Assembly: GCF_021209385.1 (NCBI RefSeq)
Contig: NZ_JAJOIL010000026.1
Span: 1-64,000 of the forward strand
Length of the DNA stretch: 64,000 bases
Direction of reading: 5' to 3'
Origin: Seleniivibrio sp.
GTDB lineage: Bacteria; Chrysiogenota; Deferribacteres; Deferribacterales; Geovibrionaceae
Notes under the pieces: generated by a model
What the model was told of the DNA's origin: nothing
Database searches by the model: none
What the model saw: only the letters and a program-made list of their open reading frames with translations
Translations under genes and position numbers: made by a program
Part shown: piece by piece, positions 26,309 to 37,783 of the stretch
Layout: the number at the start of each line of letters is the position of its first letter
Numbering within the stretch: the stretch's first letter is position 1

Positions 26309-27081
26309 TCAGTCCCCAGATGTCATACATACTTTAGAGAAGCTTGTGACCTTAAGGTCGCTTCCGTACTCGAAAAACAAGGCATTAAACAATATTTTAC
26401 CCCGCTTTTCAACCTCAAATTTGCGCGGCATCCCCGTCAGAAATCTTTCTATGGGCGCGTATTTCTCCATTCCTATCACGGAATTCTGAGCGCCGCACAT
26501 TCCGGTGTCCGTCAGGTAAAGGGTGCCTTTAGGAAGCAGACGTTCATCATTCGTCTGCACATGGGTATGGGTTCCCGTAACAGCTCCGGCTCGCCCGTCG
26601 GCATAAAATCCGAAAGCTGCTTTTTCGCTGGTGGCTTCGGCATGAAAGTCCACGAAAACAAATCCTTCAGCCTCTTCCATGATGCTGTCAAACTTGCGGA
26701 AAGGACAGTCGGAAAGCCCCATGAAAACACGCCCGATAAGGTTCACGCATGTGAACTTCTCACCGTTCTTCTCAATGGTTATGCTGCCTTTGCCCGGCAC
26801 GCCTTCCGGCATGTTCGCGGGGCGGATGAGCCTGTCCATTTTATCAATGGACTTTTCAACCTCTTTATTGTCCCAGACATGGTTTCCTGTGGTGAGGATG
26901 TCGATGTCGAGACGCAGAAGTTCCTCATATACAGCATAGGAAATGCCGAAACCTCCGGAAGAGTTTTCGGCATTTGCAATGATGATATCAGGTTGTATTC
27001 TGCCCGGACAGCGGGCAGAAAGGTTTGAACCGCCTTTCTGCCTGTGCGTCCGATAATATCTCCGATATGGAGGACTTTCAC
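26309..27081 (-). pseudogene. ymdB: YmdB-family metallophosphoesterase, frameshifted
   Basis: This family is a calcineurin-like phosphoesterase of about 260 residues, reported to hydrolyse 2',3'-cyclic nucleotides. The first frame begins [18 protein letters not shown] and runs to RAEYN; the correct continuation, DIIIANAENSSGGFGISYAV, is in another frame, leading to LTTGNHVWDNKE, ANMPEGVPGKGS and VTGTHTHVQTNDERLL. One missing base near 26994-27000 (AA for AAA, giving EYKPDIIIA) would give 257 residues. Metal-site residues (GD, ENSSGG, GNHVWD, GTHTH) are all present. The ymdB-rny pairing is a common synteny. Sequencing error or real loss cannot be separated here. Confidence 0.85.
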
Positions 27082-28637
27082 TTTGCGTATCCGACCGCTC
27101 TGGATTCCCGGATAACAGTGACTTTTATCTGACCGGGATAGGTCAGTTCGTCCTCTATCTGTTTTGAAATGTCTTTGGACAGCGTAATAAGTCTTTCATC
27201 GTTAACCTTTTCGGGTTCAACGATAATTCTGACTTCACGTCCTGCCTGTATAGCGTATGATTTGCTTACGCCGTCAAATCCGCCTGCGATTGTTTCAAGG
27301 TTTTCAAGACGTTTGATGTAGCTTTCCAGCACTTCGCGTCTTGCGCCGGGGCGTGATGCAGAGATGGCATCTGCCGACTGAACAAGCACAGCCTCGATAC
27401 ATTTGAATTCCTCTTCGCCGTGGTGAGAAGCTATCGCATTGATAACTCTCCAGTCTTCCTTGTGCTTTTTGGCAACTTCAACACCTATCTCGGTGTGTGA
27501 GCCTTCAGCTTCATAGTCTATCGCCTTACCGATATCGTGCAGAAGACCTGCGCGTTTTGCTATCTTTTCGTTAAGTCCGAGCTCTGCCGCCATAAGACCT
27601 GTGATCTTGGCAACCTCGATGGAGTGACCAAGAACGTTCTGACCGTAGGAAGTTCTGTATTTCAGCCTTCCAAGCAGTCTTGTGATGTCTTTGCTGACGT
27701 TGTGCAGACCGAGGTTGAAAAGGGCTTCCTCGCCCACTTCAAGAACGTGTTTTTCAAGTTCCTCTTTCGCCTTGTTGTAAATTTCCTCAATGCGCGCAGG
27801 GTGGATACGTCCGTCGGACACCAGTCTTTCCAGTGTCATTTTGGCGATCTCTCTGCGGAAAGGGTCATAGGACGAAAGAATTACTGCTTCCGGAGTGTCG
27901 TCAACGATTATGTCAACGCCTGTAACGCTTTCAAACGTGCGGATGTTACGTCCTTCACGTCCGATGATGCGTCCTTTCATCTCGTCGGAGGGCAGAGCCA
28001 CAACTGTGACGGTGATCTCCGAGATGTATTCGGGTGCGCAGCGCTGGATAGCGGTGGAGATGATGCTTCTTGCCTTTTTGTCGGCTTCGGTCTTTGTCTC
28101 CTCTTCCAGTTCGCGCAGAGTTCTTGCGGCTTCAAGTTTCGCATCGTCAACCATCTGTGCGATAAGCATCTGTTTCGCTTCTTCGCTGGTCATGTTGGCT
28201 ATTTTCTCTGTTTCAAAGATGATGTTCTGTTTCATCTCATTGATGCGTTCTTTTGTAGCGTCTATCTCTTTCAGACGTCTGTCATATTCGGCATCTTTCT
28301 GTACAAAGGATTCCTCTTTCTTTTCAAGAGTTTCCATCTTTTTGTCTACTGCCTCTTCCTTCTGGAAGATGCGTTTTTCCTGAACTTTCAGGTCGTTGCG
28401 TTTTTCGCGAACTTCTCTTTCAATTTCAGCTTTGCCTTTGTTGACAATATCTTTGGCTTCGAGTTTGGACTCTTTTACGATGTCGTCGCCCTCTCTTTTT
28501 GCTCTGCTGATAATGTCTTCAGCGGTTTTGTTCAGTTTCAGATTTTCAGCGTCATTTCTTTTTTTCTGCCAGAACATTCCGAAGAATGCTCCGATAACAG
28601 CTCCGGCTACCACCAGAAGGTAATAAGATATACCCAT
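27078..28637 (-). CDS. rny: ribonuclease Y
   Basis: Membrane-anchored endoribonuclease that starts mRNA decay. The 519-residue protein has an N-terminal membrane helix ([19 protein letters not shown]), a long charged coiled coil (about 30-190), a KH RNA-binding domain (about 205-265, with [13 protein letters not shown]), and an HD domain with HSIEVAK and [11 protein letters not shown]. Overlaps the ymdB start by 4 bases. Confidence 0.95.
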
Positions 28638-29182
28638 CAGCTGTTCCTCCTGTATATATCAGTTTCGGTGACGAGCATGTCGCATGGTATGTCGTGCGGT
28701 TCTGCTTTGATACTGTCAAAAAGCTGACACTCAAACGCCAGACCCACGGCTTTGCGTATTCTGCCCGCCGCAAGGAGCCTGTCATAATAACCTTTGCCCC
28801 AGCCAACCCGCATAAGCCTTCTGTCGAAGGCAACGCCCGGCACCGCGGCAACGTCTATGGATTCGTAATCGGTACATTCGGCAGGCTCGCAGATTCCGTA
28901 TGCACCGCAGATAAGGCTGTTTTCACCTTTATAAAGCCCAAGCTCTATTCCGTCTCCCCGCACGCAGGGAAGATAAACCGCCTTTTTCATTCCGTATAAG
29001 GCATTTATAAGTTCCACCGTGTCAACTTCGCCTTTGAAGCTGACATAAAGCAGAAAACTGTCAAACGCCTGAAACATCGCAAGAAAGCGCTCTGTTATAC
29101 TAACGGAAGCTCTCTTTGCATATGCCGGATCAAGGTTTTTTCGTCGGGCAAGCGCCTCACTTCTGGCTTTTGCCTTTTCCAT
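28637..29182 (-). CDS. 5-formyltetrahydrofolate cyclo-ligase
   Basis: ATP-dependent conversion of 5-formyl-THF to 5,10-methenyl-THF. The 181-residue protein carries the family motif [12 protein letters not shown] and an N-terminal basic helix. The ATG at 29182 follows AAGGA; an in-frame ATG at 29200 is an alternative. It overlaps the rarA stop. This gene, a 6S RNA gene and zapA lie within a few kb, an association also known in proteobacteria. Confidence 0.9.
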
Positions 29183-30389
29183 ATTCCTTGACACCAGCAT
29201 GAAGTTTTCTCAGCCTTTCGGCTATTTTGCTTTCAAATCCCGCTTCGGATGGGTCATAAAAGACCTTATCCGTCGCGCCGTATTCCTGTTTAACGAACCC
29301 GCCGTGGTCGAACGGGTAAACATAACCCTGTCCGTTAGTCCGTAAAGGCTCCGGCACCGCCGGCGTGTTCTCTTCAAGATACTCTTTTACCATGTGCATG
29401 GACATATAACTCCGGTTGCTCTTGGGGCATCCGGCAAGGAATGTCACAACATGGGCGAGGATGATATCCCCTTCGGGTCTGCCCACCGCCATGAAGTTTT
29501 CATAGCCCGCGTGTGCAAACGTTACAGCATCGGGAAAGGCACTGCCTACGTCCTCCGATGCGCTTATGAGCAGTCTGCGGAAGATTGCCTCCGGTTCCAT
29601 ACCGCTTTTAAGGAGCGAAAACGCCCACAAAAGCGCGGAATCGGGGTCTGTTCCCCTTATGCTCTTGATCATCGCCGAAAGCATATTGTAATGCTCGTCG
29701 GTGTTATACCTTCCGGATGCGGTGTGCTGCGCAGCCTCTTTAACATTGAGGTGCAGAACGTCACCGACAAACTTTCCGCCGACAGCGGACAGCTCCAGAA
29801 GACTGTAAAAACGCCGTCCGTCACCGTCAGATGCCTGAATTAACCTGTCAAGATCCTCTTCAGACAGAATAACATCGACAGCGTTATACCGCTTTTTAAA
29901 ATACTCGTACGCCCTTGCGAACATCTGCGCAAATGCACTGCGGTCAAGTCTTTGAAGTTCAAAGACAAAACTGCGCGAACGCAGAGGGTGTATTAAATTG
30001 TGATAGGGGTTTTCCGTGGAAGCTCCGATCAGCTTGGCGTGTCCGGAATCTATCAGACCCAAAAGAAGAACCTGTTGGCTTTTGTTGAACCTGTGCAGTT
30101 CATCCAGAAAAACCAGCGTCTTGCCTCTGGTACCCGCAGACTCCATAACCTGCTTGATTTCCGCCGCGCCCGCCGTGGCCGCGTGGAGACTGACAAAAGG
30201 CATCTGTAAATGGTTTCCGATTATTTCTGCCAAGGTGGTCTTTCCTGTGCCGGGTGGACCGATAAGGATTATCGAGTCGAACCCGCCGTCTTCTGCCATC
30301 TTACGAAATACGGAATCTGCACCCAACAGATGATCCTGTCCGGCTATATCGTCAAAGACCTTTGGTCTTAACTCTTCCAGTATTCTCAT
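29157..30389 (-). CDS. rarA: replication-associated recombination protein A (RarA/MgsA)
   Basis: Clamp-loader-like AAA+ ATPase acting at stalled forks. The 410-residue protein shows Walker A IGPPGTGKTTLAE (about residues 45-55), Walker B LVFLDELHRFNKSQQ, sensor 1 IGASTENPYH, and the C-terminal MgsA domain (DPDSALLWAF, EDVGSAFPDAV). The start MRILEELRP matches the family core start (RP.. DIAGQDHLLG) although only a distant GGGG precedes it. Confidence 0.94.
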   Translation of the reverse strand: MRILEELRPKVFDDIAGQDHLLGADSVFRKMAEDGGFDSIILIGPPGTGKTTLAEIIGNHLQMPFVSLHAATAGAAEIKQVMESAGTRGKTLVFLDELHRFNKSQQVLLLGLIDSGHAKLIGASTENPYHNLIHPLRSRSFVFELQRLDRSAFAQMFARAYEYFKKRYNAVDVILSEEDLDRLIQASDGDGRRFYSLLELSAVGGKFVGDVLHLNVKEAAQHTASGRYNTDEHYNMLSAMIKSIRGTDPDSALLWAFSLLKSGMEPEAIFRRLLISASEDVGSAFPDAVTFAHAGYENFMAVGRPEGDIILAHVVTFLAGCPKSNRSYMSMHMVKEYLEENTPAVPEPLRTNGQGYVYPFDHGGFVKQEYGATDKVFYDPSEAGFESKIAERLRKLHAGVKEYGKGKSQK

Positions 30390-30457
30390 TTATGTATAAA
30401 CCCCTAACGGGCGGTAAAAAACTTCCTATCGAAACACATTTTCATGTGTCTTTGATT

Positions 30458-30491
30458 ATTATATTAGCACATCATCAGAATAGAGCAATGA
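30458..30491 (-). promoter_or_regulatory. probable promoter of rarA
   Basis: On the minus strand an exact TATAAT (30458-30463) lies 19 bases after TTGCTC (30483-30488). Between it and the gene is a perfect inverted repeat ACACAT-TTTC-ATGTGT (30434-30449) that could be an operator or small hairpin. The long spacer lowers confidence. Confidence 0.35.
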
Positions 30492-30579
30492 TATGTTTAA
30501 ATTTTTATGACAAAAAAGGTATAAAAGCCCCCGCTCATGCCGTTAACATAATCCAATTGTAGCCCTGTTCATCAGGGCG

Positions 30580-30720
30580 GAGGAATCACGACGCATCAGG
30601 CTTCCTGCTCATGGCGGGCTTGCACACCGCAATCAGTATCATCCCCCTTTTCTGGAGTATTGGCTCCAATTTTCATATGATACACGAACACAGCAGGGGC
30701 ATCCTTAGATTCTTAATTCA
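30580..30720 (-). ncRNA. ssrS: 6S RNA (RNA polymerase-binding regulatory RNA)
   Basis: The minus strand between zapA and rarA folds as one long interrupted hairpin: GAATC/GATTC (30708-30712 with 30583-30587), GATGC/GCGTC, CCTGCT/AGCAGG, GTATCAT/ATGATAC, and apical TGGAG/CTCCA. Strings typical of 6S RNA occur in the right order: TGTGTTCG, GGAGCCAATA on the 5' side, and GTGTGCAAGCCCGCC then GGAAGCCT on the 3' side, matching conserved parts of proteobacterial 6S RNAs. Location just after zapA is the classic ssrS position. Ends are approximate; a GCCCTG/CAGGGC hairpin at 30562-30577 may mark the 3' end. It is expected to mimic an open promoter and inhibit the housekeeping holoenzyme. Confidence 0.75.
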
Positions 30721-30722
30721 AT

Positions 30723-31030
30723 GAGACTGCTTCGTCAGCATCAGCTTCCTCGCAGAGACTTGTTTTGTCTTCGCGAGGAACGCAGAGACGACGCGATCTC
30801 GTATATCTTTATAACATTTTATAAATAAATGACGTCCTGCCATTTATTTATCAGCGCAAAGACTCTTTAAGCCTCCCTTTAAAAAAGGGAGGTTTGGAGG
30901 GATTACATTATATTTCATAAAAATCCACCCCGACCCTCCTTTTTCAAAGGAGGGAGAAGAGGCTGCTTCGTCCTTAAAGTCCTCACAGAGACGGTTTTCA
31001 TATCGTCTTTGCTGGCGAAGCAATCCCGCG
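30723..31030. repeat. composite intergenic repeat (families A and B)
   Basis: This gene-free stretch is made of dispersed repeats. It opens with GAGACTGCTTCG (30723-30734) and closes with the inverted CGAAGCAATCCC (31014-31025 area), both family B ends, with CTCGCAGAGAC and GTCTTCGCGAGGA inside. A family A unit sits in the middle (30872-30955): CCTCCCTTT-AAAAAAGGGAGG, a GGAGGGATTACATT segment, then AATCCACCCC and a second CCTCCTTTTTC-AAAGGAGG hairpin. No open frame with coding character was found. It looks like a MITE-like element without a transposase. Confidence 0.65.
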
Positions 31031-31051: not shown

Positions 31052-31315
31052 TCAAACGTCTGCCTTCCTTAAAAGATCATCAAGGATGGCATCGGCGGCA
31101 TCTGCCGCTTCTTTCAGGTCAAGGTATTGAGCAGACAGTGTAAGTGCCGCCATAACGGCGAGCTTCTGTGTGTCAAGCACGTTGACCTTACTTCTTATTT
31201 CGTTCATACGATTCTGCAAAAGATCGGTGGCTCTGTCCACAAAGTCCTTGTCCCTGTCTGTCACCAGAGGGTACTGCAATCCGTTTATATTGACCTTATG
31301 TTCATAGACAGGCAC
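31052..31315 (-). CDS. zapA: cell division protein ZapA
   Basis: ZapA bundles FtsZ filaments at the division septum. The 87-residue product has the N-terminal beta segment (VNINGLQYPLVTD) followed by long helices with VDRATDLLQNRMNEI and KLAVMAALTLSAQYL, matching the family. It lies 19 bases after a small coiled-coil gene and upstream of the 6S RNA gene. Confidence 0.88.
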   Translation of the reverse strand: MPVYEHKVNINGLQYPLVTDRDKDFVDRATDLLQNRMNEIRSKVNVLDTQKLAVMAALTLSAQYLDLKEAADAADAILDDLLRKADV

Positions 31316-33050: not shown

Positions 33051-33137
33051 TCTCCCCCTTTAAAAAAGGGGGACTAAGGGGGATTTACATTAAATATCAA
33101 TCAAATCCACCCCAGCCCTCCTTTTGCAAAGGAGGGA
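33051..33137. repeat. family A inverted repeat copy
   Basis: Downstream of the TPR gene: CCCCCTTT-AAAAAAGGGGG hairpin (33054-33072), GGGGGATTTACATTAAAT, then AAATCCACCCC and CCCTCCTTTTGC-AAAGGAGGG (33115-33136). Same order as in 30872-30955. It may also act as a terminator. Confidence 0.7.
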
Positions 33138-33181
33138 GTAAGACAACAATCTTGAATTTATAAATAACCGGAGAGTAATAG

Positions 33182-34539: not shown

Positions 34540-35217
34540 TTAACGCACTCTGACGTTATTAAAATATTTTTCAATAAGCTTTATGGCGCCGCTTTTATCA
34601 AATATCTCCGGTTTAAAAGATTTATCCAGCATCCGCGAATCCCTAAGGGTCTGAACATAAAAAGGCGCATCACCGACATATCCGGCAACAGCGGCAATGT
34701 CCGCCTCTTCAGGCATTTTCCACATGGTATGGCGCACCTCGAAAGGAACCCCGAATATCTTAAGCGCTTCAATGGTTTTGTAAAACGAATTATGTTTGTG
34801 GGGAGTTCTCACGATACTTTTAAGGTCGTCGGGTGAAAAAGACTTAAGGTCAACGGCAACATAGTCCGCAAGTCCCGCATCCAATATCTTTGCCAGCTTT
34901 ACAGGAAGAAAACCGTTGGTGTCCAGCTTAACGGCAAGTCCTCTGGATTTCAGGTCGTCCAGAAACAGATGCAGATTCTTTGAAAAAAGAGGCTCGCCGC
35001 CGGTTACGGCGACGGCCTCGATATCCTTACCGTTCAGGTAGTCAAGGAAATCAGCCAGTCTGTTTGACCCCTTTCTGCCAACCGCAAGATACGGGTTGTG
35101 ACAATATCTGCATCTTATGTTGCACCCATGGGTGAAGGCTATGGATGAGATCTTTCCAGGGTACTCCATAAGGCTCACATGCTGATAGTCTGCAAGAAAA
35201 AAGTCATACGCTGTCAT
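34540..35217 (-). CDS. nrdG: anaerobic ribonucleotide reductase activating enzyme NrdG
   Basis: Radical SAM activase that installs the glycyl radical on class III reductase. The 225-residue protein has the cluster motif CNIRCRYCHNP (CxxxCxxC, about residues 33-40), the SAM-binding TGGEPL, and KLDTNG. It starts one base inside the stop of the small glycyl-radical-motif gene (TAATG), so the activase and its substrate are translationally coupled. Confidence 0.92.
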   Translation of the reverse strand: MTAYDFFLADYQHVSLMEYPGKISSIAFTHGCNIRCRYCHNPYLAVGRKGSNRLADFLDYLNGKDIEAVAVTGGEPLFSKNLHLFLDDLKSRGLAVKLDTNGFLPVKLAKILDAGLADYVAVDLKSFSPDDLKSIVRTPHKHNSFYKTIEALKIFGVPFEVRHTMWKMPEEADIAAVAGYVGDAPFYVQTLRDSRMLDKSFKPEIFDKSGAIKLIEKYFNNVRVR

Positions 35218-35384
35218 TATTTAACCTGAAAAGTCTCTCTGTGTTCAAATTCTTCTTTTTTGCCCTCGTTCCATTGTTTAACGGGGCTGTGGTAACCCAC
35301 TACGCGGCTGTATACGTCACAGGGCGTACCCTTAACGCTGTCCAGCTCGGTTTCCAGTTTTTGCAGTTCTTCTTTCTTATCCAT
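35217..35384 (-). CDS. 55-residue protein with the class III RNR glycyl-radical motif
   Basis: Short gene with an excellent AGGAGG site. The 55-residue product has an N-terminal helix (MDKKEELQKLETELDSVKG) and then CDVYSRVVGYHSPVKQWNEG followed by KKEEFEHR. In NrdD proteins the RVxGY segment at the extreme C-terminus holds the radical glycine; the large subunit encoded just upstream lacks it. It overlaps nrdD by 8 bases and nrdG by 1. I infer that it is the detached radical domain, which must dock on NrdD and be activated by NrdG. No slippery sequence is seen that would fuse it to NrdD by frameshifting. Confidence 0.85.
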   Translation of the reverse strand: MDKKEELQKLETELDSVKGTPCDVYSRVVGYHSPVKQWNEGKKEEFEHRETFQVK

Positions 35385-37428
35385 TAGATACCTCCTGTTC
35401 TATTTGGTTCTTAAGTCTTTCTATCTGAAGACTTATCTCGTGTTTTCTCTCATCTTCGCAAAGGGGGCACTCTTTATGCTCACCCTTGATATAGCCGTGT
35501 ACGGGGCATACGGAGAAGGTGGGCGTAATGGTTATATAAGGCATTGCATAGCTCTGCGTTATGTTTTCCAGCAGTTTTGAAACGGTCTCCGGTCTGTCCA
35601 CCGCCTCGCCCAAGAAGACGTGGAACACTGTGCCGCCTGTATAGAGCGGCTGCAGTTTATCCTGATGGGACAGAGCCTTGAAAAGGTCTCTGGTCTGCTC
35701 AACGGGAAGCTGTGTGGAGTTAGTATAATAAGGTCTCTGCGCCGAGCCGGATGTAACGATGTCGCCGAAATCTGCAAAATCTTTTTTCGCCAACCTGTAT
35801 GAAGTCCCTTCCGCTGGTGTCGCTTCAAGGTTGTACAGCATGTCGTCCTCATCCTGAAAGTCCGCCAGCTTGTCCCGCATGAAGTTCAGCACCTTAACGG
35901 AGAACTCAAGCCCCTGCGGATTCATGATATCCACACCAAGGAAATTCAGCAGACACTCGTTCATGCCGATTATGCCGATGGTATTGAAGTGGTTCTTCCA
36001 GTATTGCCCGTTACGCTCGTAAATATCTGAAAGATAGTATTTGCTGTAAGGATAAAGCCCGTTGGATGTGAGCTTTTCCAGTGATTTTCTCTTTATCTTC
36101 AAACCCTCTCTGGCAAGTTCCATAAGGTTTGAAAGTTTGCTGAAAAATTCAGCTTCGTTCCCCGCTGTGTAGCCTATTCTGGGCAGGTTTATCGTAACGA
36201 CGCCGATTGAACCCGTCAGAGGGTTCGCACCGAACAGACCGCCTCCCCGCTTGCGAAGCTCTCTATTGTCCAGCCTGAGGCGGCAGCACATGCTTCTTGC
36301 GTCGTCGGGACTCATGTCGCTGTTCACGAAATTGGCAAAGTATGGAGTGCCGTATTTCGCGGTTATCTTCATGAGGTCGGTTACGATGGGGTTGCTCCAG
36401 TCGAAATCCTTGTCAACGTTGTAAGTAGGGATGGGGAATGTGAAGACCCTGCCCTTCGCGTCGCCCTCCTGCATAACCTCTATGAAGGCGCGGTTGAACA
36501 TGAAAAGCTCTTCCTGAAACTCGCCGTAGGTGCGTTCCTGCGGAACACCGCCGATGACCACCGCTTCGTCGCGGAAAGCCTTGGGAACATACAGATCCAT
36601 TGTCAGGTTTGTGAAAGGTGTCTGGAACCCGACGCGCGTAGGAACGTTCAGATTGAAAATGAACTCCTGCATAGCCTGTTTCACTTCGTTATAGGACAAA
36701 TTATCATACGCGATGAACGGCGCCAGAAGTGTGTCGAAGTTTGAAAACGCCTGCGCGCCTGCCGCCTCGCCCTGAAGGGTATAGAAAAAATTAACTATCT
36801 GCCCCATGGCGGAACGCAGGTGTTTGGGCGGTTTGCTCTCCACCTTTCCGTGAACGCCGCCGAAACCGCGTGTAAGAAGGTCTTTCAAATCCCATCCGCA
36901 GCAGTACACAGCCAGAAGACCCAGGTCGTGGATGTGATATTCGCCGTTAACGTGCGCTTCCTGAACGTTCTGCGGGTATATCTTGTTCAGCCAGTATTTA
37001 GCCGTTATCTTTGACGAGATATAGTTATTAAGCCCCTGCAGGGCATAGGTGGTGTTGCTGTTCTCGTTAACGCGCCAGTCGCTGCCGCCCAGATATTCCT
37101 CGACGATGGATTCCAGCCCGCCGAATGCCTCTTTGATATCGCGCATCTCGGCTCTCTGCTTCCTGTAAAGGATGTACGCCTTGGCAGTTTTCGCGTGTCC
37201 CTGCTCAATAAGCACTTTTTCAACTTCGTCCTGAATCTCTTCAACGGACACGGTGCCGTAATTACCGTATTTGTCGGTAATGTTCCGGCACACCTTTATG
37301 GACAGAGCGGACGAGGTGTTCCTGTCGGTTCCTCCGACGGCTTTTGCCGCCTTATAAATGGCGTTGGCTATCCGTTCCGCGTCAAACGAAACGAAACGTC
37401 CGTCGCGCTTGCTTACCTTTTCTATCAT
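35377..37428 (-). CDS. nrdD: class III anaerobic ribonucleoside-triphosphate reductase, large part
   Basis: Reduces ribonucleotides to deoxyribonucleotides without oxygen. The 683-residue protein has an N-terminal ATP-cone (VSKRDGRFVSFDAERIANAI, residues 4-95), the catalytic barrel with CCRLRLDNRELRKRGGGLFG, and a C-terminal zinc-binding segment CPVHGYIKGEHKECPLC. It ends in a charged helix without the usual RVxGY glycyl-radical motif, which lies in the next small gene. ATG at 37428 chosen because AGGAGGAA precedes it; an upstream frame adds MFRGGN. Expression is under the cobalamin riboswitch 110 bases upstream. Confidence 0.93.
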   Translation of the reverse strand: MIEKVSKRDGRFVSFDAERIANAIYKAAKAVGGTDRNTSSALSIKVCRNITDKYGNYGTVSVEEIQDEVEKVLIEQGHAKTAKAYILYRKQRAEMRDIKEAFGGLESIVEEYLGGSDWRVNENSNTTYALQGLNNYISSKITAKYWLNKIYPQNVQEAHVNGEYHIHDLGLLAVYCCGWDLKDLLTRGFGGVHGKVESKPPKHLRSAMGQIVNFFYTLQGEAAGAQAFSNFDTLLAPFIAYDNLSYNEVKQAMQEFIFNLNVPTRVGFQTPFTNLTMDLYVPKAFRDEAVVIGGVPQERTYGEFQEELFMFNRAFIEVMQEGDAKGRVFTFPIPTYNVDKDFDWSNPIVTDLMKITAKYGTPYFANFVNSDMSPDDARSMCCRLRLDNRELRKRGGGLFGANPLTGSIGVVTINLPRIGYTAGNEAEFFSKLSNLMELAREGLKIKRKSLEKLTSNGLYPYSKYYLSDIYERNGQYWKNHFNTIGIIGMNECLLNFLGVDIMNPQGLEFSVKVLNFMRDKLADFQDEDDMLYNLEATPAEGTSYRLAKKDFADFGDIVTSGSAQRPYYTNSTQLPVEQTRDLFKALSHQDKLQPLYTGGTVFHVFLGEAVDRPETVSKLLENITQSYAMPYITITPTFSVCPVHGYIKGEHKECPLCEDERKHEISLQIERLKNQIEQEVSNG

Positions 37429-37536
37429 ATTTCCTCCTCTGAACACAGCAGGAGGGTATGATATCAGGGACGTATAAAGTGTGATTTGTGTTAATGGAAT
37501 GATGTAAGATCATCCATCCCTCCGCTGGTTACTTCG

Positions 37537-37705
37537 GGGCAGGTATCCTGACTTTCCATCAACCTACTCTCCTCCGTCTTCCCGCTTTCGCAGTGACTTA
37601 AAATTGAGGATTTCGTCCGGATTACAGTTGCGGGGGCAGTGCCGGATTTTAACCGGACTTCCCTGAATCCCGATGAATCATTCTGGCATATTCAGACCAA
37701 ATCTG
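37537..37705 (-). promoter_or_regulatory. cobalamin (adenosylcobalamin-type) riboswitch upstream of nrdD
   Basis: Read on the minus strand: P2 stem CTGAAT/ATTCAG, GGGAAGTCCGG, AATCCGGCACTGCCCCCGCA followed by ACTGTAA, and at the 3' end the B12 box AGTCAGGATACCTGCCC (37539-37554), all core elements of the cobalamin class. The leader of about 108 bases to the nrdD start holds a GGATGAT/ATCATTCC hairpin and the AGGAGG site. It should lower expression of nrdD, the 55-residue gene and nrdG when cobalamin is plentiful. Orientation excludes control of the plus-strand genes beyond 38,095. Confidence 0.92.
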
Positions 37706-37783
37706 TCAAATGATTTTACATATAAAAACAGTTCGCTTCGGGCAGAAGCCCTCACGAAGACCTTTTGTGCCGACGCGGCTGTT

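Follow-up and report, generated by a model that had tools for sequence, protein, structure and literature searches.

The 64,000-nt stretch of DNA analysed here (the window), which comes from the phylum Deferribacterota, raises the question of whether a structured region on its minus strand, between zapA and rarA, is a genuine gene for 6S RNA, the small RNA that restrains RNA polymerase, and whether the genes around it are old neighbours. An Rfam covariance-model search of the window matched the 6S RNA family (RF00013) to the minus strand at 30524-30702 with 78.4 bits and an E-value of 9.2e-14, against a gathering cut-off of 46.4 bits. The match is untruncated, spans model positions 1-187 and delimits an ssrS gene of 179 nt, within the range of about 160-200 nt and with the rod of closing stem and terminal arm expected of the family. 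A first-pass annotation had proposed a minus-strand 6S RNA at this place, with an Rfam search as one way to check it, and this proposal is borne out by the full-length match, by covariation over 33 sequences and by an aligned start site for the product RNA (pRNA). Its interval (30580-30720) covered 123 of the 179 nt, but the gene is longer, and the interval overran it by 18 nt upstream. With E. coli as the control genome, one RF00013 match only was found in the window's own genome. The reading adopted here, to which we assign a probability of about 0.96, is that 30524-30702 is a single, genuine ssrS gene of Deferribacterota standing in the old order zapA-6S-rarA-5-FCL-rny (5-FCL, 5-formyltetrahydrofolate cyclo-ligase; rny, encoding RNase Y). 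The RNA itself is an ordinary 6S RNA.

The minus strand of the locus folded at -65.8 kcal/mol (z = -2.94 versus 200 shuffles). Covariation was assessed on an alignment, A3, of 33 of the 45 sequences from the phylum; ten close relatives of included sequences were omitted, as were G004 and G005, which had the two weakest RF00013 scores in the phylum (47.6 and 42.8 bits). RNAalifold on this alignment gave 32 consensus pairs, with 97.2% of cells paired and 112 cells changed on both sides, compared with 26.4 in shuffles. Lack of covariance support had been named beforehand as half of the grounds for abandoning the assignment; instead, 15 of the 32 pairs showed changes on both sides and the covariation score was 0.398, against 0.168 in shuffles. 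Slid versions of the structure scored 0.041-0.083, a comparison biased toward the tested structure, which itself came from this alignment. Helices 1, 2 and 3 were paired in 97.6, 95.7 and 98.8% of cells, respectively. Helix 1 is the closing stem, with its 5′ strand at 30684-30699 and its 3′ strand, which carries the G-run, at 30528-30543 (both-side changes in 6 of 14 pairs); helices 2 and 3 make up the terminal arm, GTGTGCAAGCCCGCC ... GGAAGCCT, at 30598-30627 (both-side changes in 9 of 15 pairs). Both the closing stem and the terminal arm are well established. The central bubble fits the Rfam alignment; RNAalifold leaves most of it unpaired and finds no more than a short helix opposite the bubble, and the single-sequence fold places a small hairpin across the template site, inside the central bubble region. 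All motifs picked out in the first-pass annotation were found on the minus strand in the expected order, namely GGAGCCAATA at 30658-30667, which would form the 5′ side of the central bubble and aligns to the E. coli product-RNA template, followed by GTGTGCAAGCCCGCC at 30613-30627 and GGAAGCCT at 30598-30605.

By alignment, nt 44 of the window 6S RNA corresponds to nt 44 of E. coli 6S RNA, in which product-RNA synthesis starts at U44. The pRNA predicted from this alignment, 5′-AUUGGCUCCAAUUUUC (plus strand, 30659-30674), would start opposite nt 44; it has GG at positions 4 and 5, and the template has an A beside the start. The template base at the start is C in 28 of the 33 phylum sequences, where the pRNA would therefore begin with G, and U in the window and four others. 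By analogy with established 6S biology, the RNA would mimic an open promoter and, when growth stops, bind the housekeeping RNA polymerase holoenzyme; release would come with the synthesis of a short product RNA by the polymerase, in the present case probably starting opposite U44. An A beside the start and GG at positions 4 and 5 are described for verified pRNAs of E. coli and other Gram-negative bacteria in a passage of a paper on lactic acid bacteria (PMC8414754).

Matches to RF00013 were obtained in 45 of 50 genomes of the phylum, 44 of them above the cut-off. All 39 near-complete genomes (completeness of 90% or more, contamination of 5% or less) had a 6S match, and each of the five genomes in which none was found is less than 90% complete. 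The order zapA-6S-rarA-5-FCL-rny runs through most of the phylum, with all neighbours co-directional. zapA lies upstream on the same strand in 42 of the 45 genomes, the other three having only 45, 228 and 112 nt before the contig end. In 34 of those 42, no more than 16 nt lie between its last sense codon and the 6S match, and in several the stop codon overlaps the match. Because the zapA stop codon abuts the 6S 5′ end, 6S would in most of the phylum be processed from a zapA transcript or start within zapA. 5-FCL was found downstream in 42 of 45 genomes and rny also in 42, the three misses being contigs that end within 1.2 kb. rarA was found downstream of 6S in 38 of the 45, and in G034-G036 it is 0.9-2.9 kb away. 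It was not found beside 6S in G001-G003 and G004-G005, which represent two families outside the window's order, nor in two further genomes, where the contig stops within 260 nt.

In the window the block consists, on the minus strand throughout, of zapA (31052-31315; PF05164, 59.9 bits), 6S, rarA (also mgsA; 29157-30389; PF12002 MgsA_C, 129 bits), 5-FCL (28637-29200; PF01812, 118.3 bits) and rny (27078-28637; PF12072, 173.3 bits). The RNA had been described at first as sitting just after zapA. zapA is indeed the upstream neighbour, but a gap of 352 nt separates the two, and this gap is peculiar to part of the genus: the distance is 195-352 nt in the window and three other species, and 16 nt in a fifth (G025). 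Two interspersed repeats lie between zapA and 6S, one of family A (30725-30804) and one of family B (30866-30960, with a 12-nt inverted repeat at 30869-30895), together accounting for part of 43 matches in the window's own genome. Since two repeat families sit in the spacer, the wide gap was likely opened by inserted repeats, which would have separated zapA from 6S in this genus. One of the two families recurs inside the window at 33056-33143.

On the other side, rarA follows 6S after about 134-135 nt. This spacer (30390-30523, minus strand) contains a TATAAT-like stretch and, before rarA, AGGGG, with which an adjacent CCGCCC could pair; the rarA leaders are almost identical in three species of the genus. 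Beyond rny, a YmdB-like gene, named by reading (26309-27081, minus strand), changes frame between its N- and C-terminal parts. It is one long frame in the relatives checked, and the split in the window is either a frameshift or a sequencing error. The sole other Rfam family above cut-off in the window was a cobalamin riboswitch (RF00174, 81.5 bits; 37521-37715, minus strand). Downstream of it is a large ORF (35377-37446) whose translation reads as anaerobic ribonucleotide reductase-like, and the ORF at 34540-35217 reads in the same way as radical-SAM activase-like.

Outside the Deferribacterota, 80 named RNase Y loci were collected and 26 of the underlying genomes were searched for 6S, 25 of them with a positive result; zapA, 6S and rny occur in that order in ten of the named loci. 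Samples were then drawn around five of these genomes, belonging to Nitrospirae, Omnitrophota, Deltaproteobacteria, Myxococcales and Lucifera butyrica (Bacillota), the phylum names of the last three being our own reading. Matching genomes numbered 105 of 118 in the Nitrospirota-centred sample, 74 of 116 in Omnitrophota, 25 of 39 in Deltaproteobacteria, 30 of 38 in Myxococcales and 40 of 41 in Bacillota. Neighbours were scored within 1.5 kb of 6S at 30, 30, 27, 30 and 30 loci, respectively, among which high-scoring 6S genes are over-represented because the survey took only loci returned by the searches and not all matches. Around the Nitrospirota-centred loci, zapA was upstream in 24 of 30 (once at 1.3 kb), rarA downstream in 24, rny in 6 and 5-FCL in none. 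The Omnitrophota-centred loci had rarA in 26 of 30 and none of zapA, 5-FCL or rny. zapA (21 of 27), rny (24) and 5-FCL (6) were found in the Deltaproteobacteria-centred sample and zapA, rny and 5-FCL at 15 of 30 loci each in the Myxococcales-centred one, both with rarA at none; the Lucifera-centred Bacillota had rarA at 8 of 30 loci, 5-FCL at 2, and zapA and rny at none. A Pfam spot check of nine neighbour proteins recovered ZapA in five of five and the RarA-specific MgsA_C domain in three of four; in the fourth (L302) the locus end cuts the protein before MgsA_C. By a rough reckoning, chance alone would place a given gene inside such a 3-kb stretch in about 0.1% of genomes.

Two further observations were made on these samples. 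tRNA genes between 6S and the next gene were considered as a cause of the longer gaps in Nitrospirota, but a search run without a positive control gave none within 700 nt at any of the 147 loci of the five samples. In about 25 genomes of the Nitrospirota-centred sample RF00013 matched only in part, at the terminal arm (model positions about 59-134, 28-46 bits), possibly a sign of a divergent form of 6S.

Could the structure be no more than a strong terminator or a structured 3′ UTR of zapA, with no separate functional RNA? In its favour, the structure directly follows the zapA stop codon in relatives, and at 30 of 45 loci at least six T occur within 10 nt past the closing G-run (the window has five), as at a terminator; the closing stem may act as one. 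This explanation is nevertheless hardly tenable, since conservation extends to both arms and to the product-RNA template site, the arms covary, the RF00013 match is full-length, and 6S is intact where zapA lies 195-352 nt away and also, in the Omnitrophota sample, where zapA was not found beside it. Scored with consensus frequencies, a sigma-70-like promoter at the 6S 5′ end reached the top 5% of positions at 4 of 44 related Deferribacterota sites, by a scorer that also misses E. coli ssrS (tail 0.885); in the Omnitrophota sample the same scorer placed 14 of 30 6S 5′ ends in the top 5%. The relatedness of the genomes compromises the KS p-values of these comparisons. Promoter-like sites in the window's zapA-6S stretch were not above shuffles (2 found, 2.1 expected), and this, together with the two repeat families that occupy much of the 352-nt spacer, is what might be seen if the gene were decaying in this genus after repeat insertion had cut off its promoter. 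Such decay is very improbable: with a score of 78.4 bits the gene still has its closing stem, terminal arm and template site, it is the sole 6S copy in the genome, and 6S is retained in all four long-gap species.

A genuine, intact 6S gene could still owe its neighbours to something other than old linkage, either because the block was transferred between phyla or because the genes came together repeatedly and independently. What the block contains does vary between groups, as repeated assembly could give. In all five samples, however, whichever of the neighbours were found keep to one strand and one order, with zapA preceding 6S and rarA, 5-FCL and rny following it, and in a tree of 82 RarA proteins from 6S-linked loci the Deferribacterota, Omnitrophota and Bacillota each formed one clade and the Nitrospirota one or two. 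Since RarA from these loci groups by phylum, the block was probably not exchanged recently between phyla, as far as the RarA tree speaks for it, and we regard transfer or repeated association as an improbable source of the shared neighbourhood. Old linkage, which had been suggested in the first-pass annotation from the presence of the same neighbourhood in a probably distant phylum, thus finds support. Deferribacterota, which are distant from the proteobacteria, do have this neighbourhood, as zapA-6S-rarA-5-FCL-rny, and the same neighbours surround 6S in samples of five further groups. Parts of the gene block around 6S are found again in several distant phyla, and the block looks very old.

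The close packing seen in relatives led to a more speculative idea, which we hold to be rather doubtful. In several lineages the 3′ strand of the closing stem might double as the Shine-Dalgarno sequence of rarA or 5-FCL, with the zapA stop codon abutting the 5′ end, and the transcript would either fold into 6S RNA, hiding or removing the ribosome binding site, or be translated; the window would then be a derived state uncoupled by insertions. If true, control of the polymerase would be coupled to replication-fork repair and folate use. A next gene could be called at 43 Deferribacterota loci. At 12 of them its start codon lies only 1-10 nt past the end of 6S, with the best anti-Shine-Dalgarno pairing in the closing-stem G-run; when all gaps are counted, the best pairing overlaps the G-run at 14 of the 43. 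In nine of these 14 the start codon follows the end of the G-run by 6-11 nt; the other five are weaker cases, with a distance of at least 12 nt. 5-FCL starts 0-6 nt after 6S at 5 of 27 loci in the Myxococcales-centred sample, and no next-gene start was found within 10 nt of the 6S end in Nitrospirota (0/30), Omnitrophota (0/25), Deltaproteobacteria (0/22) or Bacillota (0/9). Homology was used to call the start codons, and pairing in the stem would conserve the G-run in any case, so tight packing could mimic selection for a ribosome binding site. The idea does not apply to the window itself, since rarA starts about 134 nt downstream behind its own AGGGG. Tight packing in the relatives also suggests that a 6S RNA can arise from, or compete with, a coding transcript. 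A search of the literature by title and abstract returned nothing recognisable on a ribosome binding site inside 6S.

The same kind of search, which did not take in Wehner 2014 and Barrick 2005 as the likeliest sources, returned nothing recognisable on 6S synteny in Deferribacterota or on the joined order; the linkage may already be in print. A passage of an Alcanivorax paper (PMC9788540) cites Wehner 2014 for the order zapA-6S-ygfA in other taxa. The claim that 6S adjoins zapA and 5-FCL in proteobacteria agrees with zapA-ssrS-fau of E. coli, which resembles the window in that its 6S RNA is an RF00013 member, nt 44 aligns, and 6S is flanked on its own strand by zapA immediately upstream and 5-FCL downstream. 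E. coli differs in having 41 nt between zapA and ssrS and 75 nt between ssrS and fau, without rarA or rny there, whereas in the window rarA and rny belong to the block and repeats fill the zapA gap. For beta- and gammaproteobacteria, another paper (PMC7641849) describes a ZapB-ZapA-SsrS-(FAU1)-EVE unit; this shares the order zapA-6S-5-FCL with the window but has an EVE gene where the window has rarA and rny. The adjacency of rarA and 6S is described in PMC8414754 for lactic acid bacteria and for B. subtilis 6S-1. The 6S gene of lactic acid bacteria lies between rarA, on its upstream side, and uspA, whereas in the window zapA precedes 6S and rarA follows. The window thus has the proteobacterial arrangement, with zapA upstream and 5-FCL downstream on one strand, and also the rarA adjacency known from Firmicutes, but on the opposite side of 6S, and so joins two neighbourhoods known apart, zapA-6S-5-FCL of proteobacteria and rarA-6S of Firmicutes. 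Because it joins them, and because the neighbours recur in samples of five other groups, a single genomic home for 6S since before the phyla split is now testable, as is a functional tie of 6S RNA to cell division, fork repair and RNA decay.
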